Source: Prevotellaceae bacterium
GTDB lineage: Bacteria; Bacteroidota; Bacteroidia; Bacteroidales; UBA932
Length of the DNA stretch: 35,013 nucleotides
Reading direction: 5' to 3'
NCBI GenBank assembly: GCA_031269545.1
Contig: JAISYZ010000195.1
Location: forward strand, 1-35,013
Of the stretch, positions 4,832 to 23,066 are shown in pieces; the stretch's first letter is position 1, and each line of letters starts with the position of its first letter. Made by a program: the position numbers and the translations under genes. The notes below the pieces were generated by a model. It was not told the origin of the DNA and did not search any database. It was given only the letters and a program-made list of their open reading frames with translations.

Positions 4832-5167
4832 ATGAAACAACAAAATAAAAATGATGTAAAAGTAACTGTGCTGTCAAAAATATCTTTAATACAGATGAAA
4901 ATATTTAACTGCTTGACACAAAAAGCAGCAAAATTATTTGCCGTTAGTGGATATTTTATTACACGCCATGTTCTATCGCATAATTTCACCATTCTTTATA
5001 AAAAGTTTAATAATACTGAAAATATTCAACATAAGGCAAAAACTATGCACAACTCAAACATTTTACGCTTTATTGGTATTTGTTTTCTTTCTCGTGTTTA
5101 CGACAGATTTCTTATAAATCACATACAAATATCAATAACATCTTTTTACTCGTCGAGTTATGAATGA
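4832..5167 (+). CDS. Doubtful 111-aa leader ORF overlapping the ammonia-lyase start
   Basis: An ATG at 4832, 22 bases after the candidate -7 box, opens a 111-codon frame whose TGA (5165-5167) overlaps the first codons of the ammonia lyase by 8 bases. That position is what a translationally coupled first gene of the operon would have. Against it, the protein is rich in Ile, Asn, Lys, His and Ser, poor in acidic residues and Gly, has no recognisable domain, and is of a kind that AT-rich leader DNA can give by chance. The alternative is that this stretch is a long untranslated leader. Confidence 0.2.
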   Translation: MKQQNKNDVKVTVLSKISLIQMKIFNCLTQKAAKLFAVSGYFITRHVLSHNFTILYKKFNNTENIQHKAKTMHNSNILRFIGICFLSRVYDRFLINHIQISITSFYSSSYE

Positions 5168-6671
5168 ATTTTCGTCTGAATCATTAAAAAATATCGTATT
5201 TAACAACGAAAAAATAATTATTTCGGAAGATGCTAAAAAGAGAATAACTGACTGTTTCGATTTTTTAAGAAAATATTCATCAAATAAGATTATTTACGGC
5301 ATTAATACAGGCTTCGGTCCTATGGCACAGTATCGCGTTGATGACGGTTATCTCATTCAACTGCAATACAATATTATCCGCAGTCACTCTACCGGTGCAG
5401 GCAATCAGTTGCCCGATATATATGTGCGTGCTGCAATGGTAGCGCGTTTGGGAACTTTTTTGCAGGCGCGTTCAGGCGTACATATTGAGTTGCTGAATCT
5501 GCTTGTGGAGTTTATAAATCGAGGAATTTATCCATTTGTCCCCGAACACGGAAGCGTGGGAGCAAGCGGCGATTTGGTGCAGTTGGCGCATATTGCCCTT
5601 GCGTTAATTGGCGAGGGACGCGTACATTATAAAGGCGAATGGCGCGAAACTGCCGATGTTATGAAAGAAACCGGCTTGCAGCCACTTAAAATACATATCC
5701 GCGAAGGACTTTCGGTAACAAACGGCACTTCGGTAATGTCGGGTATAGGTTTTGTTAATATGCTCTATTCTAAAAGGTTGCTCGATTTGACAATTCTGGC
5801 ATCTGTGTGGATAAACGAAATTACGCAAGCGTATGACGACGGTTTTTCAGAAGAACTGAATCGAACAAAAAGGCACACGGGACAATTGGCAGTCGCCGCC
5901 CGTATGCGTGAAATAGCAAAAGACAGCCGACTGTTGCAAAAGCGCGAAAATAAACTTTATGCGAATATAGATAAGGACAAGTTGATTTTTGAGCATAAAG
6001 TGCAAAGTTACTATTCGTTGCGTTGTGTACCGCAAATCTTGGGCGCTGTTTGGGATGAGATTGCTAATGCAGAAACAGTGATAGTCAATGAATTTAACTC
6101 CGCCTGCGACAATCCGATAGTTGACCCCGTAAGTCATAATGTATTGCACGGCGGAAATTTCCATGGCGACTATGTTTCGTTTGAAATGGACAAGTTAAAA
6201 ATTGCCGTTACGAAACAGACGATGCTTATTGAGAGACAGTTAAACTATCTTTGCCATGACCGCATTAACAATATTTTGCCGCCTTTCCTCAATTTGGGTA
6301 CTTTGGGGTTAAATTACGGTTTGCAGGCAGCGCAATTTACCGCCACTTCCACAACAGCAGAATGTCAGACACTTTCGTTTCCGAATTACGTACATTCTAT
6401 TCCTAATAACAATGATAATCAAGATATTGTGAGTATGGGGACAAATTCAGCGCTGATTGCTAAAACGGTGATAGAAAATGCTTTTCAGGTACTTTCAATT
6501 CAATTTATGGCATTGTCGCAAGCAACGGATTGCCTGAAAATAGATGAAAAACTTTCTTCACAAACACGAGAAATGTACAGAGAAATACGCAAAATTTTTC
6601 CTGTTGTAATTGATGACAGAACACATTATCAGGAAATTGAAAATATAACAGAATTTTTGAAAAAAATATGA
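5160..6671 (+). CDS. Aromatic amino acid ammonia-lyase, tyrosine ammonia-lyase type
   Basis: Member of the HAL/PAL/TAL family, 503 aa, complete. Ala135-Ser136-Gly137 inside GSVGASGDLVQ forms the self-made MIO electrophile. Tyr46 in YGINTGFG is the catalytic Tyr, and NDNQDIVSMG is the conserved C-terminal loop. The selectivity segment NIIRSHSTG (71-79), and the general look from QLQYNIIRSH onward, closely resemble what I recall of the characterised Flavobacterium johnsoniae TAL. I therefore infer deamination of tyrosine to 4-coumarate rather than histidine breakdown; no other hut genes are nearby. First well-supported gene of the operon; its stop overlaps the next start by 4 bases. It would supply the aryl starter of a polyene. 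Histidine as substrate cannot be formally excluded from sequence. Confidence 0.88.
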   Translation: MNEFSSESLKNIVFNNEKIIISEDAKKRITDCFDFLRKYSSNKIIYGINTGFGPMAQYRVDDGYLIQLQYNIIRSHSTGAGNQLPDIYVRAAMVARLGTFLQARSGVHIELLNLLVEFINRGIYPFVPEHGSVGASGDLVQLAHIALALIGEGRVHYKGEWRETADVMKETGLQPLKIHIREGLSVTNGTSVMSGIGFVNMLYSKRLLDLTILASVWINEITQAYDDGFSEELNRTKRHTGQLAVAARMREIAKDSRLLQKRENKLYANIDKDKLIFEHKVQSYYSLRCVPQILGAVWDEIANAETVIVNEFNSACDNPIVDPVSHNVLHGGNFHGDYVSFEMDKLKIAVTKQTMLIERQLNYLCHDRINNILPPFLNLGTLGLNYGLQAAQFTATSTTAECQTLSFPNYVHSIPNNNDNQDIVSMGTNSALIAKTVIENAFQVLSIQFMALSQATDCLKIDEKLSSQTREMYREIRKIFPVVIDDRTHYQEIENITEFLKKI

Positions 6672-8623: not shown

Positions 8624-8875
8624 ATGACAAGAACAGAAATTGATGAAATTGTAAAAAAATTTCTGATTGAAGATATTGAAATTGATGAGGCAGTTATTAA
8701 ACCCGAATCTCACTTGAAAAATGATTTAGGTATTGACAGTCTTGATTTTGTGGACATTGTTGTAATTGTTGAGCGTAATTTCGGTTTCAAAATAAAACCG
8801 GAAGATATGCAGAATGTAACTACTTTGAGCCAATTTTGCGATTATATTGAGTCGAAAGTAGAAAATAAATTATGA
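8624..8875 (+). CDS. Acyl carrier protein 1
   Basis: Small acidic 83-aa carrier protein. Ser39 in DLGIDSLDFVD is the phosphopantetheine attachment site, in the classic DSL context. Helix pattern and length match stand-alone fatty-acid and polyketide ACPs. It would hold the growing aryl-polyenoyl chain or the starter. It lies between the first ketosynthase (19-base gap) and the LpxL-type acyltransferase (4-base overlap), whose acyl donor it may present. A second, different ACP lies at 14879, as in other aryl polyene clusters, where two ACPs are typical. Confidence 0.92.
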   Translation: MTRTEIDEIVKKFLIEDIEIDEAVIKPESHLKNDLGIDSLDFVDIVVIVERNFGFKIKPEDMQNVTTLSQFCDYIESKVENKL

Positions 8876-9771
8876 CGAATAACCTCAAATGGCAAGGCAA
8901 TACGGGCGGTGGAACCTTGGGACAGCGCGGGTTGATTTTCTTTTTCCGCTGGTGGAATTTGCGTTTGGCTTACGCTATTACATTAGTGGTCGTACCGTTT
9001 TATATGCTTTTCGCTCGTAAGAATTATTTGGCTATTTATCATTATTTCAGGCAGCGATTCTGTTTTTCAAAATGGAAATCGTTTTGGAAAACCTATCGCA
9101 ACCATTTTCTTTTTGCACAGATAATTCTTGACCGTTTTGCTGTTTTTGCAGGTAAAAAAAACAACTTTGAGATTGAAATCATCGGTAACGAATATTACGA
9201 ACAGTTGGCAGCAGACAAAAAAGGCTTTATCATTGTCGGTTCGCATCTTGGAAATTTTGAAATTGCAGGTTATCTTCTGAATGCCGACAAGAAACGCATT
9301 AATGCGCTTGTTTTCGGCGGCGAAACACAAATTGTGCAGCAAAATCGCTCTAAGATATTGAACGAAAACAATATAAATCTTGTGCCTATTTCGGCTGACA
9401 TGTCGCACTTATTTGTTGCCAATTCCGCTTTGACAAATGGTGAAATTGTCAGTATGCATGCAGATAGAATTTTTGGTTCGTTAAAAAGCGTTGAGTGCGA
9501 ATTTATTAAAGGCAAAGCCAATTTTCCTGTTGGTGCATTTACGCTGGCAGTAAGTGCAAATGTGAAAATTCTTGCCGTATTTTGTGTAAAAGAAAGTATG
9601 AAGAAATATAAGGTTTTTGTACAGCCGCTTTCTTGTTGTCATGAGCAGCAATCTGCTAATACCAAAAAAGAAACTATTGAAAATTTGGTTTTTTCGTATG
9701 TTGCTGAATTGGAAAATATTGTAAAACAATATCCCGAACAATGGTTTAATTACTATGAATTTTGGAAATAA
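8872..9771 (+). CDS. LpxL/HtrB-family acyltransferase
   Basis: 299-aa inner-membrane-associated acyltransferase of the lysophospholipid/lipid A late acyltransferase family. A hydrophobic segment at about residues 31-47 anchors it. His125 to Glu130 in GSHLGNFE is the family's catalytic HX4(D/E) motif. The C-terminus PEQWFNYYEFW corresponds to the conserved PEQW ending of LpxL/LpxM. In this setting the likely role is to transfer the finished polyenoyl chain, or a fatty acid, from the ACP to a lipid acceptor, like the acyltransferase of aryl polyene clusters (ApeD). It is distinct from the PlsC-type domain fused to the exporter at 19578, so two acylation steps are possible. The acceptor cannot be deduced. 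Confidence 0.87.
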   Translation: MTNNLKWQGNTGGGTLGQRGLIFFFRWWNLRLAYAITLVVVPFYMLFARKNYLAIYHYFRQRFCFSKWKSFWKTYRNHFLFAQIILDRFAVFAGKKNNFEIEIIGNEYYEQLAADKKGFIIVGSHLGNFEIAGYLLNADKKRINALVFGGETQIVQQNRSKILNENNINLVPISADMSHLFVANSALTNGEIVSMHADRIFGSLKSVECEFIKGKANFPVGAFTLAVSANVKILAVFCVKESMKKYKVFVQPLSCCHEQQSANTKKETIENLVFSYVAELENIVKQYPEQWFNYYEFWK

Positions 9772-9775
9772 AAAT

Positions 9776-10867
9776 ATGAAACTTTTCCCCGCATTAGAAA
9801 AAAAATACACTAAAGAGCATCTTACGGCTTTGGAAGCGCAGCGTTTGGCGCACGAAATTGCCCAAGGTCCTGTCGTTTTTCAGGTGTCGCGCCTGATGAT
9901 TAAATTTGGCATTTTGCAACATCTGCTTGATTCTGAAAACGGCTTGACGCAGGACGAAATCATAGAAAAAACAAAATTATCCCGCTATGCCGTACAATGT
10001 CTTTTAGAGTCGTCATTAACTATTGGAACAGTACTTTATCAAAATGGAAAATATACCGTTTCCAAAGCAGGCTGGTTTTTGCTCAACGATTCGCCTGTGC
10101 GCATAAATATTGATTTCAATCATGACGTAAATTACCTTGGACTTTTTCATCTCGAAGAAGCCTTGCAAAACGGCAAACCAGAAGGTTTAAAAACTTTTGG
10201 CGACTGGACAACGATTTACGAAGGACTTTCTGAACTTCCTGAAAATGTGCAAAAATCATGGTTTGCTTTCGACCATTTTTACAGCGATGAATCTTTCGAT
10301 AAGGCATTGCAAATTGTGTTTGCCGACCATCCGTCAACACTGCTTGATGTGGGAGGAAATACAGGGCGTTGGGCTTTACGCTGTGTTGATTTTGATGAAA
10401 ATGTACATGTTACAATAATGGATTTGAATCAACAACTTGAAATGATGCGCCGCCAAACGGATGGCAAAAAAGGCGCTGACAGAATTAATGGATATGATTG
10501 TAATCTGTTGGATGAAAATGTGCCGTTTCCTGCTGATTTTGAAGTGATTTGGATGAGCCAGTTCCTCGATTGTTTTTCTGAAGAAGAAGGTATAAACATA
10601 CTTGCAAGGGCTTGCAAATCAATGAATCAAGACTCAAAACTTTTCATTATGGAAACTTTTTGGGACAGGCAACGTTTTGAAACTGCCGCCTATGCTCTCA
10701 CGCAAATTTCGTTATATTTCGCGGCTTTGGCAAATGGCAACAGCAAAATGTACCATAGTGAGGATATGATTCGCTGCATTGACAAGGCTGGTTTGATGGT
10801 AGAACAAATTTACGATGGAATAGGGCAAGGACATTCTATATTTCAATGTAAAATAAAAAATGATTAA
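9776..10867 (+). CDS. SAM-dependent O-methyltransferase with N-terminal winged helix
   Basis: About 363 aa. The N-terminal half carries a dimerisation/winged-helix region (TQDEIIEKTKLSRYAVQCLL, then YTVSKAGWFLL) as in plant-type and polyketide O-methyltransferases. The C-terminal half is a class I Rossmann domain with motif I LLDVGGNTG at residues 189-197. By family it would methylate a hydroxyl, here plausibly the phenolic hydroxyl of the aryl head group. I start it at ATG 9776, four bases after the upstream stop; an in-frame ATG at 9755 would add seven residues and overlap the acyltransferase by 17 bases. The stop overlaps the next gene by 8 bases. Confidence 0.82.
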   Translation: MKLFPALEKKYTKEHLTALEAQRLAHEIAQGPVVFQVSRLMIKFGILQHLLDSENGLTQDEIIEKTKLSRYAVQCLLESSLTIGTVLYQNGKYTVSKAGWFLLNDSPVRINIDFNHDVNYLGLFHLEEALQNGKPEGLKTFGDWTTIYEGLSELPENVQKSWFAFDHFYSDESFDKALQIVFADHPSTLLDVGGNTGRWALRCVDFDENVHVTIMDLNQQLEMMRRQTDGKKGADRINGYDCNLLDENVPFPADFEVIWMSQFLDCFSEEEGINILARACKSMNQDSKLFIMETFWDRQRFETAAYALTQISLYFAALANGNSKMYHSEDMIRCIDKAGLMVEQIYDGIGQGHSIFQCKIKND

Positions 10868-11297: not shown

Positions 11298-11712
11298 AAA
11301 ATTAAAAGCGGAAAAAGAAATAAATGTGCGATTTAGCGAAGTAGATTCAATGAATATTGTTTGGCATGGCTCGTATGCGTTGTATTTTGAAGATGCTCGC
11401 GAAGCATTTGGCGCAAAATATGGTTTGGGTTATTTGGATATTTTCGGCAACGGATATTATGCGCCTTTGGTCGATTTACGTTTTGAGTACAAAAAACCAT
11501 TGATTTACGGACATAAAGCCCGCATAGAAATCACTTACAGAAACACACCGGCAGCAAAAATTATTTTTGATTACGAAATTTTTGATACAGAAGATAATTC
11601 GCTGATTGCCACGGGATATTCAATTCAAGTGTTTATGGATAAACAATATCGGTTGCTTTGGACAAATCCTGAATTTTACGAAAGGTGGAAAGAAAAAAAC
11701 GGTTTGCAATGA
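11287..11712 (+). CDS. Acyl-ACP/CoA thioesterase, 4HBT family
   Basis: 141-aa hot-dog thioesterase of the 4-hydroxybenzoyl-CoA thioesterase group. RFSEVDSMNIVWHGSYALYF (15-34) with Asp20 and His27, followed by EDAREAF, matches the family pattern VDxxGHVxxxxYxxxFExAR, and the Asp is the catalytic residue in studied members. It would release a chain or clear stalled intermediates, as the thioesterase (ApeK-type) of aryl polyene clusters is thought to do. It overlaps the ketosynthase that follows: ATG at 11709 lies inside its TGA stop context. Confidence 0.85.
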   Translation: MENKKLKAEKEINVRFSEVDSMNIVWHGSYALYFEDAREAFGAKYGLGYLDIFGNGYYAPLVDLRFEYKKPLIYGHKARIEITYRNTPAAKIIFDYEIFDTEDNSLIATGYSIQVFMDKQYRLLWTNPEFYERWKEKNGLQ

Positions 11713-12860
11713 TAAATACTGTCGGTACAAATATAATTTCTTCGTTAGGTTTTACGACAAACGAAAATTATGAAAATGTAAAGCGCGGTATTTCAGGCAT
11801 CAAGCATTACGATGTCGGTACATTTGGTTTGCCCGAAGCATTTATGGCTTCACTTATTGAGAAAGAACGTTTGAATGATTTGTTTTACCCTTACTGTAAT
11901 CATGTTTCACAATCAAATTACACCGAACTTGAAAAAGCCGCTATTCTTTCAGTTTTTGATGCAAACAAGGAGGCAAATATTGATTTGTCGAGCAAAAAAA
12001 CAATTTTTATTATTTCAACAACAAAGGGAAATGTAAAGAATTTAGAAACGCCTTCAAAAAATCCAATGCACAAGGTTTATCTTTGGCATACGGCGAAATT
12101 AATTACCACTTTTTTTCAAAATACGAACACGCCGATAGTCGTTTCAAATGCCTGTATATCAGGAGCAGCGGCGCAAATTACAGCAATGCGCGAACTGAAA
12201 AACAGACATTTTGATTATGCGGTGGTTATAGGTGCAGATTTTCTGTCGAAATTCATTATTTCAGGTTTTCAGTCGTTCAAAGCCTTGTCGTCTGATATTT
12301 GTCGCCCGTTTGATAAAGAACGTTGCGGATTGAATTTAGGCGAAGCTGTGGCAACGATAATTTATACTAACAAAGTACACAATGCCAAACATAGAATTTC
12401 GTTAAGTGACGGAGCTATCCGCAATGATGCCAATCACATTTCATCTCCTTCGCGAACAGGAGAAGGAAGTTTTCGTGCCTTAAACTGTGTTTTGCAAGAT
12501 ATTAATAAAGAAGAAATTGCATTTATAAATGCGCATGGAACGGCAACACTTTACAACGATGCCATGGAAGCCGTTGCGATTGAACGGGCTGGATTACAGC
12601 TTGTACCTGTAAATTCGCTAAAAGGTTATTTTGGACATACCTTGGGAACTGCAAGTGTGTTAGAAAGTATTATTTCGATGTGCGCACTGCAAGAAAATAC
12701 AATACTGAAATCACTGAATTATAATGAACAAAACTTTGAAAATCAAATTAATATTTCAACAGAAAATAAGAGAACACATAAAAAATATTTTATCAAAATG
12801 CTTTCGGGTTTTGGTGGCGTAAATGCAACTTTGCTGTTTGAAAAAATTAGTCAGTTATGA
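11709..12860 (+). CDS. Beta-ketoacyl synthase 2 (divergent FabF type)
   Basis: 383-aa condensing-enzyme homologue. Active-site Cys149 in VVSNACISGAA, a histidine in NAHGTATLYND, the second histidine in GYFGHTLGTAS and a final SGFGGVNAT loop keep the full Cys-His-His set, so catalysis is possible. The N-terminal half is clearly less conserved than in the other two synthases, and the usual SGIxxxP region is reduced. I start at ATG 11709 (MINTVGTNII), which gives an ATGA overlap with the thioesterase stop; an upstream in-frame start would put eight residues (MERKKRFA) inside the thioesterase gene. Its 3' neighbour is a half ketosynthase-like protein, so the two may form a complex. Confidence 0.82.
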   Translation: MINTVGTNIISSLGFTTNENYENVKRGISGIKHYDVGTFGLPEAFMASLIEKERLNDLFYPYCNHVSQSNYTELEKAAILSVFDANKEANIDLSSKKTIFIISTTKGNVKNLETPSKNPMHKVYLWHTAKLITTFFQNTNTPIVVSNACISGAAAQITAMRELKNRHFDYAVVIGADFLSKFIISGFQSFKALSSDICRPFDKERCGLNLGEAVATIIYTNKVHNAKHRISLSDGAIRNDANHISSPSRTGEGSFRALNCVLQDINKEEIAFINAHGTATLYNDAMEAVAIERAGLQLVPVNSLKGYFGHTLGTASVLESIISMCALQENTILKSLNYNEQNFENQINISTENKRTHKKYFIKMLSGFGGVNATLLFEKISQL

Positions 12861-13420
12861 AGTTATATATACAAAAACATATCAATTTGTCATTTAAAAA
12901 TTCAGCGGAAATGACTGATTTTTATCGGGCATTAGAAGTTAATTATCCTAAATTTTTCAAAATGGATGGATTGTCTAAACTTGGTTTTTTAGCATCGGAA
13001 AAGATTTTTGAAAATACGCCGAATCGCTTTGAACCTCGCGAGGATATTGCTGTCGTTTGTTTCAACCGTAGCAGTTCGCTCGAAATTGATATGCTGTACC
13101 AAAAAAACATACAGAGTAATGAAAATTATTTTCCTTCTCCTTCGGTTTTTGCTTATACATTGCCTAACATCGTTACTGGCGAAATCGCAATACGAAACAG
13201 ATTTTATGGCGAAACATCGTTTTATATTTCAGAAAAATATGACACAGAAATGATTTTTCGCACAGTAAACAATTGCTTTTTAGATAAAATAACTAACTTT
13301 GTACTTTGTGCGTGGATAGAAAGTTTTAAGGAAAAATTGGACGTGAAAATGTTTTTGATTACAAAAGAAAAAACAGATAACGAATTTTCGGAACAAACTA
13401 TTCACATGAATGATAATTGA
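12857..13420 (+). CDS. Stand-alone half of a ketosynthase-like fold, no catalytic residues
   Basis: 187 aa, coupled to the upstream ketosynthase by a 4-base overlap. I do not recognise a named family with certainty. The segment NYFPSPSVFAYTLPNIVTGE and the following AIRNRFYGETSFYIS resemble the central part of condensing enzymes just before the active-site Cys, but no Cys-containing nucleophile loop, HGT or GH motif follows, and the protein ends at about half the usual length. It may be a degenerate, regulatory or scaffolding partner of a ketosynthase, comparable to a chain length factor. The alternative is a protein unrelated to ketosynthases. The 3' end is followed after 8 bases by the barrel gene. 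Confidence 0.55.
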   Translation: MKLYIQKHINLSFKNSAEMTDFYRALEVNYPKFFKMDGLSKLGFLASEKIFENTPNRFEPREDIAVVCFNRSSSLEIDMLYQKNIQSNENYFPSPSVFAYTLPNIVTGEIAIRNRFYGETSFYISEKYDTEMIFRTVNNCFLDKITNFVLCAWIESFKEKLDVKMFLITKEKTDNEFSEQTIHMNDN

Positions 13421-13428
13421 TTAATTAA

Positions 13429-14268
13429 ATGAAAATTATGAAAAAAATAAAATTAATTTTAATAAGCATATTTTTATCCATTTCGCCATTGATTTTGGCG
13501 CAGGATGGGTTAATTTCCATGCCGCGAATGCGTTTGGGCATTGAAGCGGGAATTACAAGCACTATTGGTGCAAAAACAAACAAGCATTCAAATCTTCGTG
13601 AAAACAGGTCGTATTATTATGATGACTACGACTATGATTATAATTGTGGTTTTATTTTTGACGGACAGACTTATGACATGTACTATTTCGGATTAAATCT
13701 TGAATACACACTGATTGAAAGATTAACAATTGCAGCAGGATTACGCTGTACATTCACCCACAGCGAATTAAATTCCGACAGAGATTATTTTCTTTGGAAA
13801 ACGACAGAAAGCGGCTTAACTACCAATTATGTCAAAATCAGAGACATATCGCAAAAAAGTATATTTGTGGGCATACCGTTAGAACTAAAATTTTTTCCCA
13901 ACAAAAAAGATTTTTTTATACGGCATTACTTCATTTTAGGTACGGCTCTGAATTTTTTGGTTAATTCAAAAAACTATATTTCGTATGCAAACGACAATAT
14001 GAAAAAATATAGCTCCCTTATTTCCGAACAGGCAGGAAAACCTAATGTTTTTCAAGGTTATTTGTACGTTGGTGTTGGACTTAAAATCGGACGAATGAAC
14101 AAAGCCTTTGGAAATATAGAAATACATTTTCCTGTATATATGTTTGATAATGAGAAGTTAAGTTCATTTGCAAAATCAAGTGGAACTGCAGGTATCGGCA
14201 TACGGACTACCTTGCAGATACCCGTTTTCAAAAATAAAAAATTACAATATAAAATTGATAACTATTAA
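13429..14268 (+). CDS. Outer-membrane beta-barrel protein of unknown role
   Basis: 279 aa with a clear signal peptide (KKIKLILISIFLSISPLILA, cleavage likely before QDG). The mature part alternates hydrophobic and polar residues as in a small barrel, with short strands such as MRLGIEAGITSTIG, FGLNLEYTLIERLTIAAGL, YLYVGVGLKIG and GTAGIGIRTTLQI. An acidic Tyr/Asp-rich loop (YYYDDYDYDYN) near residue 62 would face outward. It resembles porin-family or OmpA-barrel-like proteins of Bacteroidota; no specific function is recognised. It sits inside the polyketide operon next to a lipoprotein, so it may help place or display the product in the outer membrane. An internal ATG at 13438 is an alternative start. 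Confidence 0.72.
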   Translation: MKIMKKIKLILISIFLSISPLILAQDGLISMPRMRLGIEAGITSTIGAKTNKHSNLRENRSYYYDDYDYDYNCGFIFDGQTYDMYYFGLNLEYTLIERLTIAAGLRCTFTHSELNSDRDYFLWKTTESGLTTNYVKIRDISQKSIFVGIPLELKFFPNKKDFFIRHYFILGTALNFLVNSKNYISYANDNMKKYSSLISEQAGKPNVFQGYLYVGVGLKIGRMNKAFGNIEIHFPVYMFDNEKLSSFAKSSGTAGIGIRTTLQIPVFKNKKLQYKIDNY

Positions 14269-14280
14269 AAATATAAAGAT

Positions 14281-14865
14281 ATGAAAAAGACTATTTTTTT
14301 ATTACTGACAAGTTGTTTATTAGCGTCTTGCGCCAAAGAAGATGTCTTGGACAGGACGATTTTTATTCCCGATGAATCTGATCCCAATTTGCCTGCTTAT
14401 ACCGAGTGGGGTTACAATTCGTTTGGCGCAAAATATGAAAGAAGTTATTTTTTAGCTTCAAATTCGATTATCCCATGTAAAATTTTATATAAAGACGGAA
14501 AATTGCAGTTTTCGCTCATAGGAAACATAGATTATGAAAAAATAACACTGTCATTTATTTTTCCTTTCCCTTCGATTTCCGATTACAGCGGTTTGATTCA
14601 ACTTAATGATAAAGAAATAAATCTTGTTGATGCAGACTGTACCGTGAAAATTTCGCAAAACGACGGCAACGATAAAATTCTCAACGTGTTGAACGGCAAA
14701 TTGCATTTTAAGCGTACGCAACTGCTTAATATTGACGATATTCCAAATCGTGTTATCCTTTCAGGAACATTTGAGTTGCGATTTATGCAGGATGATTTCC
14801 CCGAATCTATATCGGACGGACGTTTTGACTTGGGAATAAATAATAATACTTTTTATGCTTTTTAA
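14281..14865 (+). CDS. Lipoprotein of unknown function
   Basis: 194 aa. The signal peptide ends in a lipobox, LLASC, with the lipidated cysteine at residue 17, followed by AKED. The presence of acidic residues just after the cysteine is compatible with export of the lipoprotein beyond the inner membrane in Bacteroidota. The remainder looks like a beta-rich domain without recognised motifs. It follows the barrel gene after 12 bases and precedes the second ACP gene, so barrel and lipoprotein are probably a functional pair within the operon. Confidence 0.75.
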   Translation: MKKTIFLLLTSCLLASCAKEDVLDRTIFIPDESDPNLPAYTEWGYNSFGAKYERSYFLASNSIIPCKILYKDGKLQFSLIGNIDYEKITLSFIFPFPSISDYSGLIQLNDKEINLVDADCTVKISQNDGNDKILNVLNGKLHFKRTQLLNIDDIPNRVILSGTFELRFMQDDFPESISDGRFDLGINNNTFYAF

Positions 14866-14878
14866 TATTTAGTTGATT

Positions 14879-15154
14879 ATGAATACTTTTTCACAAATGG
14901 AAAATTTAATTTTAAAACTGAAAGAAGAAATTATCGAAGTATTGAATCTCGAAGATACTAAACCTGAAGACATAAATGAAAACGACAATCTTTTTGGCGA
15001 TGGTTTGGGTTTGGATTCCATTGATGCGCTTGAACTTATAGTTTTGATGGAAAAAAACTATGGCATAAAGATTAAAGACCCAGCACAAGGAAAGGAGATT
15101 TTTAAGTCAATAAAAATTTTGGCGGAGTACATTGCTGCAAAAAGGACAAAATAA
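14879..15154 (+). CDS. Acyl carrier protein 2
   Basis: 91-aa acidic carrier protein with the phosphopantetheine serine at residue 47 in GLGLDSIDALEL, the DSI variant common in polyketide and aryl polyene ACPs. It differs clearly from ACP 1, suggesting separate tasks such as starter loading and chain extension. I use ATG 14879; a TTG at 14873 adds two residues, and an internal ATG at 14897 would still keep the domain. The stop overlaps the next ketosynthase by one base. Confidence 0.88.
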   Translation: MNTFSQMENLILKLKEEIIEVLNLEDTKPEDINENDNLFGDGLGLDSIDALELIVLMEKNYGIKIKDPAQGKEIFKSIKILAEYIAAKRTK

Positions 15155-16401
15155 TGAGCAAAATTCTCGTCAGCGGCATGGGCATTATTTCGGCAATTGG
15201 CAATAACGTTGTAGAAACATTACAGTCGTTGCGGGAAAACCGTAGCGGCATAGAGCATTTACGTTATCTCAAAACCGCTCACAACAAATTTCCTGTTGGT
15301 GAAATAAAACTTAGCAACGAGGAAATGATGCGAATGTTAAATATTCCTGAAAATCTACCTGTTACACGTACTTCTCTAATGGGAATGCTGGCAGTGCATG
15401 AAGCTCTCATCAGTGCCTGTTATTGCTGGCGCAATCAACAACTGTCAGACAAACAGAAGGTTGCTGCATTATTTAAAATGACTGATAAACGCATAGCTCT
15501 TATAAATGGTACAACGGTTGGCGGAATGGACAAAAGAGAACAATTTTATAAAGATTTTTTGGAAAATGATTCGAAAAACGACTATATAAAATCACACGAT
15601 TGCGGCACCTGCACAGAAATGATTGCTGATTATTTTGGCATTTTCTCGCAGCTTCAAACCATTTCTACAGCATGTTCGTCAGCGGCTAACTCTATTTTAT
15701 ATGGAGCGGAACTGCTCAAAAACGATAAAGCCGACATTGTGGTAGTGGGAGGCAGTGAATGCATCACAAAATTCCATCTCAACGGCTTCAAAATGTTGAT
15801 GATTTTAGACAGAGAAAAATGTCGCCCGTTTGATATTACTCGTGCAGGTTTGAATTTGGGCGAAGGCGCAGCGTATCTTGTTTTAGAAAAAGAAGAACAT
15901 TTTCGTAAACGTACGGCTTTATCTCCACTTGCAGAATTAAAGGGATACGCCAATACTTGTGACGCTTACCATCAAACAGCCTCGTCGCCCGAAGGCGATG
16001 GCGCGTTTTTAGCAATGAAAAAAGCCTTGGAAAATGCAAATCTCTCGCTCTCCGACATTGATTATATCAATGCACACGGCACAGCTACACAAAACAACGA
16101 TTTAAGCGAAGGTACAGCCATCCAAAGACTTTTTGGCGACAATATTCCGCCTGTCAGTTCCACAAAGACTTTTACTGGACACACGACAAGCGCGGCAGGC
16201 AGCGTAGAAGCAGTAATTTCCATACTTGCCCTGCAAAACAATTTTGTACCTGCAAATTTGGGATATAAGAAAAAAATGCAGGAATTGAACTTTGAACCAT
16301 TTACAAACTCGCATAAGACTTTGAAACCTGTTCGCGTTGTCCTTTCAAATTCATTTGGATTTGGCGGAAATAATACAACTTTAATTTTCAGCAAGTTATG
16401 A
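15154..16401 (+). CDS. Beta-ketoacyl synthase 3 (partner of the cysteine-less subunit)
   Basis: 415 aa, full-length condensing enzyme. MSKILVSGMGIISAIG is the first strand-turn; Cys174 lies in ISTACSSAANS; catalytic histidines are in NAHGTATQNND and FTGHTTSAAGS; SNSFGFGGNNTT is the C-terminal loop. The next gene overlaps it by four bases and encodes a ketosynthase-like protein without the cysteine. The order active synthase followed by inactive homologue is that of KS/chain-length-factor pairs, and in aryl polyene clusters such a heterodimer (ApeO with ApeC) builds the chain. I infer the same here. Confidence 0.9.
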   Translation: MSKILVSGMGIISAIGNNVVETLQSLRENRSGIEHLRYLKTAHNKFPVGEIKLSNEEMMRMLNIPENLPVTRTSLMGMLAVHEALISACYCWRNQQLSDKQKVAALFKMTDKRIALINGTTVGGMDKREQFYKDFLENDSKNDYIKSHDCGTCTEMIADYFGIFSQLQTISTACSSAANSILYGAELLKNDKADIVVVGGSECITKFHLNGFKMLMILDREKCRPFDITRAGLNLGEGAAYLVLEKEEHFRKRTALSPLAELKGYANTCDAYHQTASSPEGDGAFLAMKKALENANLSLSDIDYINAHGTATQNNDLSEGTAIQRLFGDNIPPVSSTKTFTGHTTSAAGSVEAVISILALQNNFVPANLGYKKKMQELNFEPFTNSHKTLKPVRVVLSNSFGFGGNNTTLIFSKL

Positions 16402-17411
16402 AAAATAAAATTTATATATTATCCGCCGCTCATATTTCTGCTCAAACGCCTTTACGTGAAGACTGGATGAAAAATCCAATTTTGTACAATGAAGAATATG
16501 TGCGAGCGATTGAGCCGAATTATAAAGAACATTTTTCAGCATTGGAAGCACGACGTTACGGACAGTTGCTGAAACGTGCTCTCCTTGTGTCGCGCAAAGC
16601 AATGGAAACAAGCGGAATAACCAATCTGGACGCTATTATTACAGGCACGGGACTTGGCTGCATTGAAAATACGGAATTTTTCTTGAAAGACTTGACCTTT
16701 AATGGAGAAGAATTGTTGAAACCTACGCATTTTATTAATTCTACACACAATACAATCAGTTCTCTTGTAGCTATTGATACTAAATGCAACGGCTATAATT
16801 CAACTTATACTCATAAGGGAATTTCGTTTGAATGCGCCTTACAAGATGCTTTCATGCAATTGAATAACAGAAAAATCAATACCGCTCTTATCAGCGGACA
16901 CGATGAAATGACACCCGATTATTTTGCCATACTAAAAAAGACGGGATATTTGGATTTTTCAGAACAGGGATTTGCAGGTGAAACAGCAGTTGCGATGATA
17001 TTGGGAACGGAAAAAACGGCAAATACGTTATGCAAAATAGAAAAAGTCGAAACGCTATATACTATTGATTTTGAATATATTAATTCCGTTACAGAAAAAT
17101 TTGCAAAACCTGATTACATTTTCACAGGTATCAACGGACAGTCTGAAAACGATAATCGCTATTTTGATGTTTGCGAAAAAATATTCCCTAAGGTTCCGCT
17201 TCTGCAATATAAAAACCTTTTTGGAGAAAGTTACACTGCGCCCGCTTTGGGAATTTATGCGGCAGCGAATTGTTTGCAGAAAGGAAATATTCCTGTTCAC
17301 TTTTTAATTCAAGGAAAAAGTGCAAATTGCAAATCTGAACCAACGAAGATATTGTTCTACAATAATTTTGAAGGGAAAAATCATTCATTAATACTTTTAT
17401 CAATATGTTGA
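16398..17411 (+). CDS. Ketosynthase-like subunit without active-site Cys (chain-length-factor-like)
   Basis: 337 aa. The overall order of segments follows a condensing enzyme: YILSAAHIS at the start, then LDAIITGTGLGCIENTEFF, then the region where the nucleophile should be. There the sequence reads TYTHKGISFE (137-146), with no Cys in the position of ACSSG, and no HGT motif follows. It is also shorter than the roughly 400 aa of active enzymes. I infer a non-catalytic partner of the synthase encoded just upstream, comparable to ApeC or a chain length factor. Classical type II factors have Gln in place of Cys, which is not seen here. The stop overlaps the next gene by 7 bases. Confidence 0.72.
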   Translation: MKNKIYILSAAHISAQTPLREDWMKNPILYNEEYVRAIEPNYKEHFSALEARRYGQLLKRALLVSRKAMETSGITNLDAIITGTGLGCIENTEFFLKDLTFNGEELLKPTHFINSTHNTISSLVAIDTKCNGYNSTYTHKGISFECALQDAFMQLNNRKINTALISGHDEMTPDYFAILKKTGYLDFSEQGFAGETAVAMILGTEKTANTLCKIEKVETLYTIDFEYINSVTEKFAKPDYIFTGINGQSENDNRYFDVCEKIFPKVPLLQYKNLFGESYTAPALGIYAAANCLQKGNIPVHFLIQGKSANCKSEPTKILFYNNFEGKNHSLILLSIC

Positions 17412-17758
17412 AAATAATACTTTTAACCATAATACAATGCCTGCTTTCAGCCAGCGGACAAGTTTTTTTCAAATTAGCAGTACAAAAAATCGGTAAATTT
17501 GTTCTTTCGTGGGCATATTTTGTTGATATTTTGACAAACTGGTGGTTATTGGCAAGCGGCATCAGTTTGATTTTGGCTATCATCTTGTGGAGTTATATTT
17601 TGAAACATTTCGAATTTTCAGTAGCATATCCAATTACGGCGGTTGCATACGTTTTCGGCGTTTTATCTGCTATTTTTATTTTTCACGAAACAGTGTCGCT
17701 AACGAGATGGCTGGGTGTTGGATTAATAATTTTGGGAGTGATTTTAATTGCAAAATAA
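17405..17758 (+). CDS. Four-helix EamA/SMR-like membrane protein, possible lipid-linked sugar flippase
   Basis: 117 aa, four predicted membrane helices (about 3-22, 34-62, 66-90 and 97-116). Motifs GQVFFKLAV in helix 1 and SVAYPITAVAYVFGVLSAI in helix 3 are typical for the EamA-like small multidrug resistance group, which includes the ArnE/ArnF undecaprenyl-phosphate-sugar flippase subunits. Given the GT2 glycosyltransferase in the same operon, flipping a lipid-linked sugar or polyene intermediate is plausible, but this is inference. Overlaps the preceding gene by 7 bases. Confidence 0.68.
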   Translation: MLKIILLTIIQCLLSASGQVFFKLAVQKIGKFVLSWAYFVDILTNWWLLASGISLILAIILWSYILKHFEFSVAYPITAVAYVFGVLSAIFIFHETVSLTRWLGVGLIILGVILIAK

Positions 17759-17780
17759 AAAATTAAAGTTAATTATACTC

Positions 17781-18413
17781 ATGAAAAGGAAAGTTGTTTT
17801 ATTTATTTTGTTTTCTGTGTTTTGTGAAACTGTACTTTCTCAAGACAGTCGAAATTTGAATGAAAAAGAAAAAGCGGTTTTCGAGCAAAAGATGCAAGTG
17901 CGGTCGAAAAATATAAACACGCTACAATGCCGTTTTGTGCAGGAGAAAACTTCGACATTAGTTTTGGCGAAGGCTGTCGCAAAGGGTATTTTACTCTATC
18001 AATCACCATCGATGTTGCGTTGGGAATATACAGAACCTGTGCATTCTATATTGATTTTGAATGGAAAAAATGCCGTTCTTCTCAACAAAGACGGCAATCA
18101 GCAAGGCAACTCTCATGTATTAAAACAACTTGGCGGTATTATCATTTCGATGATCAATGGCGAAAGTTTGCGGCAAAATAAACAGTTTGCAACCGAAGTT
18201 TTTGAAAGTGAAAAAGATTTCAGGGTAGTTTTAACGCCAATTCAAAAGCGCTTAAAAGAGTTTTACAAATCAATTGAACTGAAACTTGACAAAAATACTT
18301 TTCTTGCTTACGAAATTGTATTGGAAGAAAAGTCGGGCGATAAAACAATCATTTTTTTGAATGACAAAGAGATAAATAATGAAATAGACATAAATAAATT
18401 TGCCGTAAAATGA
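17781..18413 (+). CDS. LolA-like periplasmic lipoprotein/lipid carrier
   Basis: 210 aa. A signal peptide (RKVVLFILFSVFCETVLS, cleavage near SQD) precedes a LolA-type fold: KNINTLQCRFVQEKTS, then GILLYQSPSMLRWEYTEP, a hallmark of LolA proteins, then SILILNGKNAVLLNKDG. LolA-like proteins are part of aryl polyene clusters (ApeL) and probably shuttle the hydrophobic product or a lipoprotein across the periplasm. I place the start at ATG 17781, 22 bases after the upstream stop; an upstream TTG would add 11 residues before the signal sequence and overlap the preceding gene. It overlaps the next gene by 4 bases. Confidence 0.82.
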   Translation: MKRKVVLFILFSVFCETVLSQDSRNLNEKEKAVFEQKMQVRSKNINTLQCRFVQEKTSTLVLAKAVAKGILLYQSPSMLRWEYTEPVHSILILNGKNAVLLNKDGNQQGNSHVLKQLGGIIISMINGESLRQNKQFATEVFESEKDFRVVLTPIQKRLKEFYKSIELKLDKNTFLAYEIVLEEKSGDKTIIFLNDKEINNEIDINKFAVK

Positions 18414-18772: not shown

Positions 18773-19581
18773 AGAATGTACACGACATAAGACAGAAAAC
18801 ACGATTTTGTGTAATTATTCCTGTTTATAACAGTGAAAATTTCATATCTGATACTATCAATTCTGTTTTGCAATATGCTGAAAATATAATTATTATAAAT
18901 GATGGTTCAACAGATGGAACTGCAGATGTCATAATCCAACATTACGGATTTGATTTGCAATCACGCGAAGTAATAGAGAACTGTAAATGTCAAAAAAATG
19001 CTAATATCATTGTAATTTCTTACTCTAAAAATCGTGGTAAAGGTTATGCATTGCAGCAAGGTTTCAAAAAAGCCCTGGAACTTGGTTTTACACATGTTGT
19101 AACGATGGATGCAGATGGACAGCATTTAGCAAATGACATAGCGCTTTTGACAGAAAGAACTCAAAAAAATCCTGATGCACTGATTGTTGGTTCGCGGAAA
19201 TTCGATAATCCTAATATGCTCAAAGGCAGCCGATTTGCCAATAATTTTTCAAATTTCTGGTTCCGAATGCAAACAGGAATATCTTTGCCTGATACTCAGA
19301 CAGGCTTTCGTCTTTATCCGTTGCATCGGATGGGAAATATGAGATTGTTTACAAACCGTTACGAAACCGAATTGGAACTTTTAGTACGCTTGGCATGGCG
19401 TGGTATTAAAATTATTCCGCAAGAAATAAATGTATATTATCCACCTGAAAATGAGCGCCTTTCGCATTTTCGCAAAGGTATAGACTTTTTCAGGATTTCA
19501 GTTTTGAATACGGTTTTGTGTGTGTTTGCGGTGGTTTATGGGTATCCGAGCATGTTTTTGAGAAAAATTTTTAAGACATGA
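18769..19581 (+). CDS. GT2-family glycosyltransferase (dolichyl-phosphate-mannose-synthase-like)
   Basis: 270 aa. Residues 16-21 (IIPVYN) and 44-50 (NDGSTDG) bind the nucleotide sugar, DADGQ at 114-118 contains the metal-binding DxD, and DTQTGFRLYPL near residue 182 is the acceptor-side signature of this group. A hydrophobic stretch near the C-terminus (VLNTVLCVFAVVYGY) probably associates it with the inner membrane. Such enzymes are standard in aryl polyene clusters and may transfer a sugar to a lipid carrier or to the polyene. Sugar and acceptor are unknown. Overlaps both neighbours by 4 bases. Confidence 0.87.
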   Translation: MKNVHDIRQKTRFCVIIPVYNSENFISDTINSVLQYAENIIIINDGSTDGTADVIIQHYGFDLQSREVIENCKCQKNANIIVISYSKNRGKGYALQQGFKKALELGFTHVVTMDADGQHLANDIALLTERTQKNPDALIVGSRKFDNPNMLKGSRFANNFSNFWFRMQTGISLPDTQTGFRLYPLHRMGNMRLFTNRYETELELLVRLAWRGIKIIPQEINVYYPPENERLSHFRKGIDFFRISVLNTVLCVFAVVYGYPSMFLRKIFKT

Positions 19582-22500
19582 ATAATTTTTTTATCAAAAT
19601 ATTCGATTTAGTAAAACATCGCAAAACGTTGCTATGGTTGCTTTTAGCATGTATTGTCGTTTTGTTGATGTTTTCTGCTTTGCATATTTCATTTGTAGAA
19701 GATATTTCGTCTTTTATGCCAACTAATGGTGATAACAAACGAATTAAGGAAGCATATCAAAAAATTGGGACGACAAACAAAATTATCGTTACTGTTTCGC
19801 AATGCGATACAACAAATACTGACGAAAACTTATTAACAGATGCTACCACTCGTTTTGCTGAAATTTTGCAGGAAAGCGATTTATCGGGATTGATAGATGA
19901 ATTGATATATGAAATTGATGATGAAAAAATTAATGAAGTTGCCAATTTTATCACACAAAACTTGCCGTTTTTTCTCGAAGAAAAGGATTATACAAAATTT
20001 GACTCGCTGATTCAAAATCAAAACATTGAAAATCAATTAAAAGCAGACAAAGAACTGCTAATGTCGCCAATGGGCGGTTTTGTGCGCGAAGTAATTTTGC
20101 ACGACCCGTTACACCTTTCGGATAAAGCGCTGAAAAATCTTGAAATTTTCAGGCAAAACGACAATTACAATACCGACAACGGTTATATTTTCAACAAAAA
20201 AGGCGAATGTATTGTAACGATTTCTTCAAAATATCCTGTCAGTGAAACCGCCAATAATAAATTGCTCGCAAATAATATTTACAACGCAGTCAATCAGACA
20301 GTAAAAGAATTTTCCTTTAAAATAAAAATCGTACCGTTCGGGGCTATATTAGTGTCAATAACCAACGCTGACCAACTCAAAAACGATTCGATTTTTGCTG
20401 TGTCCATTGCATTAGTTTTAATTCTTGTTCTGCTGGTTTACTTTTTCCGAAATGTAAAATCACTGTTTTATATTGCCTTTTCTATCGTATTCGGTGCATT
20501 ATTTTCGTTAGGAGTGATAGCGCTTTTCAAATCTACTGTTTCAATAATTGCTATTGGTATTGCTTCAATTATTTTTGGCATTGCTATAAATTATCCGCTG
20601 CATTTTTTAGCGCACAATCGGCGCATCTCTGATACCAAACGCACGCTCAAAGAAATCATTAATCCATTATTAATAGGGAATATAACTACTGTCGGCGCTT
20701 TCCTTTCGCTGTTGTTTATCAGTAGCGATGCGATGAAAGATTTGGGACTGTTTTCATCTTTGCTGTTGGTAGGAACAATTGCTTTTGTTCTGATTTTTTT
20801 ACCGCATCTTATTTCAGACAGAAAATATCAGAGAAAAGACGCCATACCTGTTTTTGGGAAATTAGCAGAATTTTCTCCCGAAAAAAATAAATGGATTGTG
20901 CGTATGTTTTTGATTTTTACAGTAATGTTATTCTTTTTCAGCTTTGGGACGAAATTTGAAACGAATTTACATGCAATTAATTACATGACAGCCGAACAGA
21001 GGATAGCAATGAATCAATTGATTGAGGAGAATCAGAGAAAAGGAAAAACGATATATGTGGTGGCAGAAGGGAAAACTATGGACGAGGCTTTGCAAAACTA
21101 CGAACATTATTGTGATTTTGACCTGTCTATTAAAAACGTTTCTGGCATCGGCAACTTCTTTCCATCAAAAGAATTGCAAAAACGGAAAATTGATATATGG
21201 AACAGATTTTGGAAAAATCGAAAAGATATTTTGATAAAAAACATCAATCAAATTTCTGAAAAACAAGGATTTAATAAAGGCGTCTTTGACGGCTTTGCCA
21301 AAGTGCTGAATAAGGATTTTCAACCACAGGATTTTGAATATTTTTCCCCAATTTACAAAAATATGGGCGAAAATTATTTTTCCATTTCTAATGATAAAAT
21401 ATTGATTTACACAATTTTGAATTGTAATGATAGTCAGTTTAAGAATATTGAAAATCAGTTTGCAAATAACAATGATAATATGTTCACTTTCGACGACACC
21501 TCTATCGCTATGAAAATAGTCAATGCCCTTTCCACCGATTTTAATAACGTGTTGTACATTTGCGGATTTATTGTATTTTTATTTCTATTTTTATCATTCG
21601 GGCGCATTGAGTTGGCTGTTTTGACTTTCGTTCCTCTCGCAGTTGGTTGGGTGTGGATTTTGGGACTGATGAATATATTTGACTTGAAATTCAACATCGT
21701 TAATATTATTTTGGCGACATTTATTTTCGGTCAGGGAGATGATTATACTATTTTCATTACCGAAGGGCTGATTTATGAATATACTTACCGCAAAAAAATG
21801 CTTGCCTCGTTCAAAAACTCCATTATTCTGTCGGCAACTATTTTGTTTATTGCTATCGGCATGTTGATTTTTGCCAAACATCCTGCAATGCGCTCTTTGG
21901 CACAATTGACTGTTGTAGGAATGGTGTCAGTAGTGATGTGCGCTTACCTTTTTCCACCTCTTATTTTCAAATTTTTGACAGTTAAAAAAGGCAAACCACG
22001 TGAAGTTCCATGGACTTTTAAACGCTTTTTGAAGATGTTGTACGCCTTTGTAATATTTCTTATAGGAAGTTTATTTATAATGATTTACGGATTTATATTG
22101 TTTGGTTTCCGTAAAAAAACCAGCGAAAAAAATAAATTTTACTATCATCGTCTTTTGCATAAAGCTGCCAACTTTACTATTCGATGGATACCGGGAGTAA
22201 AATTCCGCTATGAAAACCTTTCGGGCGAAACATTCGACAGACCATCAATAATAATCAGCAACCACCAGTCGCATTTGGATTTAATGTGTCTGATGATGCT
22301 GACGCCTAAATTGATAATTTTGACTAATGATTGGGCGTGGCGCAGTCCATTCTACGGAAAAATTATCCGCTATGCCGATTTCTATCCTGTTTCGCAAGGA
22401 ATAGAAAACAGCGTTCCGCAACTCATCGATGCCGTCAATCGCGGTTATTCTATCGTGGTGTTTCCCGAAGGCACGCGATCTGTAGATTGCAGCATTGGAC

Positions 22501-23066
22501 GTTTCCATCGTGGAGCGTTCTATTTGGCTGATAGATTGGAACTTGACATTGTACCTGTGTTTTTGCACGGTGCAGGACATGTTCTGCCAAAAAATGATTT
22601 TTTGCTGCGCGAAGGACAAATTACAGTGCAGGTACATGAACGTATCACGCTTGCCGATAAACGTTTTGCCAATGATTATACTCTGCGTACTAAACAAATA
22701 AGAAAATATTACATTGAAAATTTTGTTTCAATATGCCAAAAAATAGAAACGACAGACTATTTTAAACGTTTTGTTATGTATAATTATATGTATAAAGGCG
22801 TTGAAGTCTGGCGCAGAACGAAAAAAGAATTTGCTGACGTGGAAAAAAATCATTCGCCTGTACAAATCAATGAAAATACGGTTTTGATACGAAACAGCGG
22901 TTACGGCGTTTTTGCGTTTTTATATGCGCTTGTGCATAAAGACGTACAGGTTATTGCCGTTGAAGAAGATGAGGATAAGACAGCAATAGCAAAAAGTTGT
23001 GCAGGATTGCCAGATAATATCAAATTTTATAATAATTTCGAATGGACAAACATATCATCATCATAG
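19578..23066 (+). CDS. MMPL/RND-type lipid exporter fused to a PlsC-type acyltransferase
   Basis: 1162-aa fusion protein. Residues 1-810 form an MMPL/RND transporter: helix 1 at about 15-35, a periplasmic domain, helices from about 270 to 430, a second periplasmic domain, then a second helix bundle up to about 810. After another membrane segment (about 823-845) comes a lysophosphatidic-acid-acyltransferase domain with HX4D at 896-901 (NHQSHLD) and FPEGTR at 962-967. The last 80 residues (VLIRNSGYGVF, then VQVIAVEEDEDKTAIA) look like the first half of a Rossmann/SAM-binding domain that stops early. It probably acylates and exports the polyene lipid through the inner membrane, like the separate exporter and acyltransferase of other aryl polyene clusters. 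The stop overlaps the next gene by 25 bases. Confidence 0.88.
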   Translation: MNNFFIKIFDLVKHRKTLLWLLLACIVVLLMFSALHISFVEDISSFMPTNGDNKRIKEAYQKIGTTNKIIVTVSQCDTTNTDENLLTDATTRFAEILQESDLSGLIDELIYEIDDEKINEVANFITQNLPFFLEEKDYTKFDSLIQNQNIENQLKADKELLMSPMGGFVREVILHDPLHLSDKALKNLEIFRQNDNYNTDNGYIFNKKGECIVTISSKYPVSETANNKLLANNIYNAVNQTVKEFSFKIKIVPFGAILVSITNADQLKNDSIFAVSIALVLILVLLVYFFRNVKSLFYIAFSIVFGALFSLGVIALFKSTVSIIAIGIASIIFGIAINYPLHFLAHNRRISDTKRTLKEIINPLLIGNITTVGAFLSLLFISSDAMKDLGLFSSLLLVGTIAFVLIFLPHLISDRKYQRKDAIPVFGKLAEFSPEKNKWIVRMFLIFTVMLFFFSFGTKFETNLHAINYMTAEQRIAMNQLIEENQRKGKTIYVVAEGKTMDEALQNYEHYCDFDLSIKNVSGIGNFFPSKELQKRKIDIWNRFWKNRKDILIKNINQISEKQGFNKGVFDGFAKVLNKDFQPQDFEYFSPIYKNMGENYFSISNDKILIYTILNCNDSQFKNIENQFANNNDNMFTFDDTSIAMKIVNALSTDFNNVLYICGFIVFLFLFLSFGRIELAVLTFVPLAVGWVWILGLMNIFDLKFNIVNIILATFIFGQGDDYTIFITEGLIYEYTYRKKMLASFKNSIILSATILFIAIGMLIFAKHPAMRSLAQLTVVGMVSVVMCAYLFPPLIFKFLTVKKGKPREVPWTFKRFLKMLYAFVIFLIGSLFIMIYGFILFGFRKKTSEKNKFYYHRLLHKAANFTIRWIPGVKFRYENLSGETFDRPSIIISNHQSHLDLMCLMMLTPKLIILTNDWAWRSPFYGKIIRYADFYPVSQGIENSVPQLIDAVNRGYSIVVFPEGTRSVDCSIGRFHRGAFYLADRLELDIVPVFLHGAGHVLPKNDFLLREGQITVQVHERITLADKRFANDYTLRTKQIRKYYIENFVSICQKIETTDYFKRFVMYNYMYKGVEVWRRTKKEFADVEKNHSPVQINENTVLIRNSGYGVFAFLYALVHKDVQVIAVEEDEDKTAIAKSCAGLPDNIKFYNNFEWTNISSS

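Follow-up and report, generated by a model that had tools for sequence, protein, structure and literature searches.

What are two genes for predicted outer-membrane proteins doing in the midst of a polyketide gene cluster? This question is raised by a contig of a Prevotellaceae bacterium (JAISYZ010000195.1, assembly GCA_031269545.1), the whole 35,013-nucleotide stretch of which is referred to here as the window. The first-pass annotation had described a barrel gene and a lipoprotein gene lying, with spacings of 8-14 bases, between a 'half ketosynthase' (hKS) gene and ACP2, and had raised the possibility that their products insert, anchor or flip the pathway product at the outer membrane.

Position of the Barrel and Lipoprotein Genes

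Examination of the ORF list of the window revealed both genes to be present where they had been described, each beginning with ATG:

13429..14268, + strand: predicted 8-stranded outer-membrane beta-barrel gene, first of the pair (ORF, signal peptide, AlphaFold, Foldseek, VIA-align)
14281..14865, + strand: predicted outer-membrane lipoprotein gene, second of the pair (ORF, lipobox LLAS|C, AlphaFold, NF052634 below cut-off)

The encoded proteins comprise 279 and 194 residues, respectively. The close spacing was also borne out, with 8 nt separating the hKS stop at 13420 from the barrel gene, 12 nt separating the barrel and lipoprotein genes, and 13 nt separating the latter from the ATG of ACP2 at 14879 (7 nt from an in-frame TTG at 14873). 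The order hKS, barrel, lipoprotein, ACP2 forms a single unbroken run on the + strand; no terminator-like sites were detected within positions 12600-15400, and promoter-like sites around the pair occurred at chance level (10, as compared to 12.9 expected). The G+C contents of the pair (0.325 and 0.344) fall inside the range of the host cluster (0.309-0.416). Because invariant residues are kept in both the barrel and the lipoprotein families, each considered as a 49-member alignment, the two sequences can be taken as real genes.

The Host Cluster

The genes flanking the pair belong to one long + strand run extending from 5160 to 24538, in which the following were identified:

5160..6671, + strand: FlxA tyrosine ammonia-lyase, first cluster gene (NF053541, 844 bits, cut-off 700)
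9755..10867, + strand: FlxJ family methyltransferase (NF053543, 617 bits, cut-off 560)
11685..12860, + strand: ketosynthase KS2 (PF00109/PF02801)
12857..13420, + strand: 187-aa 'half ketosynthase' (hKS), directly upstream of the pair (label from the first-pass annotation)
14879..15154, + strand: ACP2, directly downstream of the pair, alternative start TTG 14873 (PF00550)
15154..16401, + strand: ketosynthase KS3 (PF00109/PF02801)
17405..17758, + strand: EamA/SMR-like small membrane protein (PF00892)
17748..18413, + strand: LolA-like periplasmic carrier (PF03548)
19578..23066, + strand: MMPL/RND-type exporter fused to a phospholipid acyltransferase domain (PF03176, PF01553)
23042..24538, + strand: CrtI/CrtD-like FAD oxidoreductase, last cluster gene (PF01593, PF13450)

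As both FlxA and FlxJ match over cut-off, the cluster can be assigned to the flexirubin/aryl-polyene type, its flexirubin-type components including the FlxJ-type methyltransferase, ketosynthases, ACPs, LolA and the MMPL exporter. The top NCBIfam match of the oxidoreductase was CrtD (119 bits, far under cut-off), and no DarA/DarB dialkylresorcinol genes appear in the annotation of the window. The EamA/SMR-like protein stands in place of another kind of protein, of 222 aa, present in loci L007 and L050.

No Pfam match was obtained for the 187-aa hKS protein. Since a long KS2 (>540 aa), as if fused to hKS, directly precedes ACP2 in 10 of 80 Bacteroidales loci, hKS belongs with the ketosynthase machinery, with 'half' being a putative label of the first-pass annotation.

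The window contains no FlxY CoA ligase gene; a FlxY homologue is instead encoded on another contig of the same genome (G000; C9:29211-30491; L331:9209-11670). There, FlxY is followed by a partner gene, and a similar satellite of FlxY and partner recurs elsewhere in Bacteroidales, outside the 13429-14865 interval to which the first-pass annotation referred.

Predicted Structures of the Two Proteins

The AlphaFold model of the barrel protein, generated with the 49-member alignment, presents eight long strands (mean pLDDT 90.8). Foldseek ranked OprG first (E 3.6e-6) and OmpW next (E 1.7e-5), while VIA-align yielded Z 14.3 against OprF (rmsd 2.4, 133 aligned) and Z 13.3 against OmpW (rmsd 3.0, 173 aligned), such that OmpW/OprG, at Z 12-13, is tied with OmpA/OprF. 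The window barrel is predicted to have the 8-stranded outer-membrane fold of these proteins, with about 10% identity to them and no sequence family match. Neither Pfam, where no convincing match was found, nor a sequence search of the PDB was informative for the window protein, and it is not among the 19 of 49 family members that match PF13568 (OMP_b-brl_2; best 9.5e-8). On the strength of the model, the protein is predicted to be an 8-stranded outer-membrane barrel of the OmpW/OmpA class.

The lipoprotein was modeled with a pLDDT of 92.8. Its lipobox reads LLAS|C, with the Cys being invariant in 49 of 49 family members, of which 23 also present two adjacent acidic residues at positions +2 to +6 after this Cys. 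The C-A-K-E-D of the window protein fits the C-X-K-(D/E)2 surface export signal, a consensus that was defined in Capnocytophaga, according to the available text of PMC5080379, and that may not be that of the host. Structural comparison gave weak matches, the best of them, at Z 7.0, to a designed barrel (for such a score, a common arrangement can be enough), followed by YceI-like 3q34 (Z 6.5, rmsd 3.4, 113 aligned) and nitrophorin (Z 4.5); Foldseek returned no match under E 0.08, no convincing Pfam match was found and a PDB sequence search was fruitless. The model thus only weakly suggests a lipocalin/YceI-like fold, of the up-and-down soluble barrel type.

Given the Foldseek ranking of OprG and OmpW and the export-signal-like AKED following the lipobox Cys, the pair could be read as an OmpW/AlkL-like uptake pore and a ligand-binding surface lipoprotein that feed an aromatic or lipid precursor to the pathway, rather than exporting its product. 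However, fold class alone says little, the pair has no transporter partner, and precursor uptake would be needless, given that FlxA converts tyrosine to the aromatic starter. As such, precursor uptake is considered highly improbable.

A Conserved Two-Gene Module Found in Bacteroidales

A scan of GTDB genomes using the lipoprotein alignment yielded 56 loci, mostly from Bacteroidales. Of the 55 loci with a lipoprotein call, 53 have a barrel gene directly upstream of the lipoprotein gene and in the same orientation, and one of the two exceptions begins at a contig edge; the gap between the two genes has a median of 5 nt and falls between -150 and +100 in 50 of the 53. In a sample of 393 genomes of the order, the lipoprotein was detected in at least 33, including that of the window. 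Because only the best 8 candidates per genome were scored in the scans of the phylum and order samples, pairs may have been missed among the negative genomes. The pair is a conserved two-gene outer-membrane module of gut and environmental Bacteroidales. The existence of a further fixed partner gene was rejected upon clustering of the neighbors, which gave no widely recurrent non-polyene partner; the non-polyene neighbors form only small groups of at most 7 loci, at varying places.

The pair is not a regular feature of clusters like that of the window. In the phylum sample, FlxA was found over cut-off in 33 of 395 genomes and the lipoprotein in at least 2, with only the genome of the window presenting both; in the other 32 of the 33 FlxA-bearing genomes, the lipoprotein was unmatched among the best 8 candidates per genome. 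In a survey of 30 regions, chosen for their FlxA hits apart from a few, the hKS/ACP2 junction was readable in 20 FlxA-type loci outside the window. The pair was found in none of the 20, with hKS adjoining ACP2 in 19 and a long KS2 preceding ACP2 in one. In 80 Bacteroidales marker regions, the junction was direct in 53, followed a long KS2 in the 10 noted above, contained the pair in 5 and was not seen in 12. Given the 0 of 20 junctions and the 32 of 33 FlxA-bearing genomes without a match, the pair is not core to flexirubin clusters, and its being a core biosynthetic part was rejected, in view of its absence from the related FlxA-type clusters examined. The earlier statement that neither gene is a recognized core part of aryl polyene pathways calls for some qualification, in that comparable parts of such pathways have been described (ApeA, ApeL/ApeN, LolA2/LolB2 and ArcC; see below).

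In one genome (G843; L267:2716-5146), the hKS/ACP2 junction holds FlxY (NCBIfam 701 bits, cut-off 520) and its partner gene in place of the pair. This partner has no family match and regularly adjoins FlxY, its acyltransferase label coming from a reading of the sequence alone. When G843 is compared with the pair-bearing loci, the junction looks like a favored insertion point. In addition, another small barrel-like gene, of 186-195 aa, is found between hKS and the barrel gene in two loci with window-type clusters (L075:8582-9142 and L078:3422-4009); the L075 copy has no Pfam or NCBIfam match.

Recurrent Linkage to Polyene Genes

Polyene genes were found near the pair in 14 of the 56 loci, in 12 by virtue of main-cluster genes and in two (L085 and L089) by virtue of the FlxY satellite. 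For the remaining 42, the DNA stretches examined, many of which are short, showed no polyene gene. At least five arrangements of the pair beside polyene genes can be distinguished. The pair is inside the cluster in seven genomes, i.e., that of the window and those of L071, L072, L073, L074, L075 and L078, all of which present the hKS-barrel-lipoprotein-ACP2 order of the window, with L075 and L078 including the extra small barrel-like gene. In L118, the pair lies just upstream of DH1, in L094, hKS is directly upstream of the pair, and in L093, the lipoprotein gene is convergent with CrtI-MMPL-GT2. Cluster-type genes lie 2-9 kb from the pair in L084, L086 and L092, the last with weaker evidence. 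Finally, the pair is divergent from the FlxY satellite in L084 and L089, where FlxY is at -3753 and -5674, respectively, relative to the lipoprotein gene start, and convergent with it in L085, where the nearest listed satellite gene starts at +590 from the same point.

A similar neighborhood is seen in the single-contig genome G619, in which CrtI is followed by an AAT-type acyltransferase, FlxY and a small gene, after which come the convergent lipoprotein and barrel genes, the lipoprotein lying 0.7 kb beyond FlxY. In G832, a barrel gene at one contig end is divergent from FlxY and the L093 lipoprotein gene begins at another contig end; the pair may therefore lie between satellite and cluster, a reading that crosses a contig break. 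In L083, which is outside the 14 linked loci, a satellite-type esterase is found 1.8 kb from the lipoprotein gene.

In a chance model assuming a 27-kb target per genome and a 10-kb reach, 0.9-1.3 linked loci of 56 are expected, as compared to the 14 observed, a rough estimate that ignores kinship. Five linkage events alone would have a P of ~2e-3 to 1e-2. In a tree of the pair, the linked loci occupy at least three separate parts. The seven genomes of the clade of the window probably reflect one event, and neighboring lineages with the pair are not independent. Chance insertion alone was rejected on the basis of recurrent linkage in several arrangements, as judged by this rough model that ignores kinship. 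The first-pass annotation had set against itself the finding of the pair as an unrelated unit elsewhere and its absence from all related clusters. The pair does occur elsewhere as its own unit, but is not absent from all related clusters.

Enrichment of the Pathway Marker in Pair-Bearing Genomes

The distribution of the hKS marker was next considered. The marker was detected in 19 of 32 pair-bearing and 31 of 125 pair-free Bacteroidales genomes (Fisher p=5e-4), the latter figure combining 7 of 45 and 24 of 80, with 125 genomes searched of 130 drawn. Genomes G000, G005 and G029 were left out of the 32. Of 26 matches among the 80, the weak hits in G684 and G761 were disregarded, leaving 24, and including both gives p=7e-4; the partial hit in G549 was counted as positive, with p=0.0011 if G549 is omitted. 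The other 13 of 32 pair-bearing genomes gave no marker hit. In a second set, comprising the genomes behind the pair loci, the marker was found in 37 of 48 and not in 11; this set overlaps the order sample and excludes L083, L088, L071, L087, L118, L122, L124 and L125. nifH, found over cut-off in 2 of 32 and 3 of 45 genomes, served as a control for lineage and lifestyle, albeit a weak one at this low prevalence. When genomes were stratified by GTDB family, in hand-compiled strata, the association fell to p=0.06, supported by five informative families and opposed by one; enrichment of the marker is therefore partly a matter of kinship.

These results bear upon the possibility that the pair is a general envelope module, serving, for example, stress or lipid homeostasis, with no dedicated polyene role, that came to lie in an insertion-tolerant, well-expressed site, with enrichment reflecting shared ancestry. 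Most pair loci show no polyene genes, some of the marker-free pair-bearing genomes are highly complete and in few contigs (G513 and G541), and the family-stratified p is as given above. Against this stand the several different arrangements beside polyene genes, including the satellites of FlxY and its partner. A general envelope role is judged somewhat unlikely. The association of the pair with polyene pathways is fairly well supported. The earlier proposal that the pair may handle the product at the outer membrane is partly supported. In its favor are the presence of the pair inside the cluster in seven genomes, its other arrangements beside polyene genes, enrichment of the marker and the predicted outer-membrane nature of both proteins; against it are the 0 of 20 FlxA-type junctions, the lipoprotein match in only 1 of 33 FlxA-bearing genomes of the phylum sample, the 42 of 56 loci showing no polyene gene in the DNA examined and the 13 of 32 pair-bearing genomes with no marker hit.

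The Pair and LolB

In Bacteroidales polyene loci, a LolB-like gene is usually found between LolA and DH2. In the window, the gene following the LolA-like gene, which it overlaps by 4 nt, is not LolB-like, and a LolB profile gave no match in the window or elsewhere in its genome. A LolB-like gene is missing between LolA and DH2 in the window (17748-18772), G005, L072, G619, G703, G520 and G826. In a profile search of 24 genomes, no match was obtained in 14, among them G000, G005, G814, G815, G816, G820, G619, G703, G832 and G827, whereas all five positive-control genomes were matched. The LolB-like gene of G052 lacks a lipobox, as do LolB-like genes in some other polyene loci.

Such absences could mean that the pair replaces a lost LolB2, with the lipoprotein and barrel having taken over cargo from LolA. 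The missing LolB-like genes of the window, G005 and L072, the ten unmatched genomes named above and the G052 gene would all agree with replacement, as would a comparison of linked and unlinked cases (0 of 6 vs. 17 of 26; Fisher p=0.006, uncorrected for kinship), in which the 17 of 26 is a hand tally including L315 and L316, with the lipobox marked by a simple pattern. However, a LolB-like gene is retained in G825, G831, G833 and G817, the last of which presents the window arrangement; the pair-free G609 and G696 also lack one, and several of the MAGs are incomplete. Nor is the lipoprotein recognizably a LolB homologue, with hhalign giving, over columns 6-108, a probability of 65% that stems from the signal region. 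LolB replacement is accordingly held to be improbable; because G817 keeps the gene, it is a suggestion rather than a rule, and replacement as a rule was rejected on the basis of G817 and of G609/G696. The lipoprotein as a LolB homologue was also rejected, as the weak profile match comprises the signal region and little beyond. LolA and LolB are not among the listed fold matches of the lipoprotein, which excludes neither.

A Possible Role at the Outer Membrane

The reading favored here is that the pair is a Bacteroidales outer-membrane module, mostly stand-alone, that is tied functionally to flexirubin/aryl-polyene pathways, has been recruited several times and receives or places the polyene; we give this reading as a whole an even chance. 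The evidence suggests that the pair handles pigment at the outer membrane, probably as an accessory module receiving or placing the polyene lipid. In such a scheme, the pair would have been inserted between hKS and ACP2 in the lineage of the window. The polyene lipid would be exported by the MMPL protein and then carried by LolA, after which the lipoprotein would receive the hydrophobic polyene at the outer membrane via a lipocalin-like cavity. The barrel, as the membrane partner of the lipoprotein, would serve in placing or keeping the polyene in the outer leaflet. Against a module tied to polyene pathways, OmpW-class barrels are small, such that a polyene lipid may not pass, and the fold matches of the lipoprotein are weak. 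A more elaborate version of the proposal, in which a lipocalin-like lipoprotein and an OmpW-class barrel form a dedicated outer-membrane polyene receiver that is fed by LolA in clusters lacking LolB, places the product in the outer leaflet and moves as a cassette between the main cluster and the FlxY satellite, is thought unlikely.

Comparison with described systems places this proposal in context. The flexirubin cluster of Chitinophaga pinensis and Flavobacterium johnsoniae, as given in the available text of PMC3992019, has in common with the window a FlxA lyase, methyltransferase, ketosynthases, ACPs, LolA, a glycosyltransferase and an exporter, and the flexirubin pigment is reported there to be in the outer membrane. 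The two differ in that the related loci examined lack the pair at hKS/ACP2, while the window cluster lacks FlxY and a LolB-like gene. In the F. johnsoniae flexirubin locus, LolB2 adjoins LolA2, and a dedicated carrier and outer-membrane acceptor for pigment or lipoproteins have been proposed (PMC11885536, available portion); by contrast, the window encodes LolA but no LolB, and its lipoprotein, without convincing similarity to LolB, is paired with a barrel. For the Escherichia coli APE system, the portion of PMC8253772 considered describes the lipoprotein ApeA together with the LolA/LolB-like ApeL/ApeN, and proposes export of the polyene lipid by an MMPL protein and LolA. The idea shared with that system (ApeM, ApeL, ApeN and ApeA) is that delivery to the outer membrane has components of its own, an accessory lipoprotein among them, ApeA being compared by description only; unlike the window, the 18-gene table in that source lists no outer-membrane barrel. 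The Azoarcus arc cluster, as presented in the available part of PMC3949708, lists an outer-membrane protein, ArcC.

No description of the barrel-lipoprotein pair was found in the literature searched, which covered little of the subscription literature. Both the fold classes and this type of cluster have been described before; the pairing of the two genes as a module, and the way in which it recurs beside polyene loci, are new as far as searched. In the consulted portions of PMC8253772 and PMC11885536, proposals for how aryl polyenes and flexirubins reach and sit in the outer membrane stop at MMPL/RND, LolA and LolB-like proteins. The pair offers a concrete and deletable candidate for the last delivery step, in lineages often lacking LolB.

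The Lipoprotein and the Riean_0653 Family

The window lipoprotein is distantly related to the Riean_0653 family (NF052634) over nearly its full length (E 2e-14), scoring 54.7 bits, below the curated cut-off of 57. Members of this group were matched in 121 of 395 Bacteroidota genomes (E 0.001), and a barrel gene lies beside the lipoprotein gene in 1 of 30 loci examined, this being that of the window itself. That the wider family occurs without the barrel also counts against a module tied to polyene pathways. Insertion mutants of Riean_0653 lost hemolysis, according to the accessible text of a transposon study (PMC7881567). Lipoproteins of the family also occur in tandem, with five copies in G371 (C13:143239-146557) and three in G225 (C2:70566-72870). 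A lipoprotein-like gene without an assigned family lies at the right edge of the window (33957-34763, - strand).
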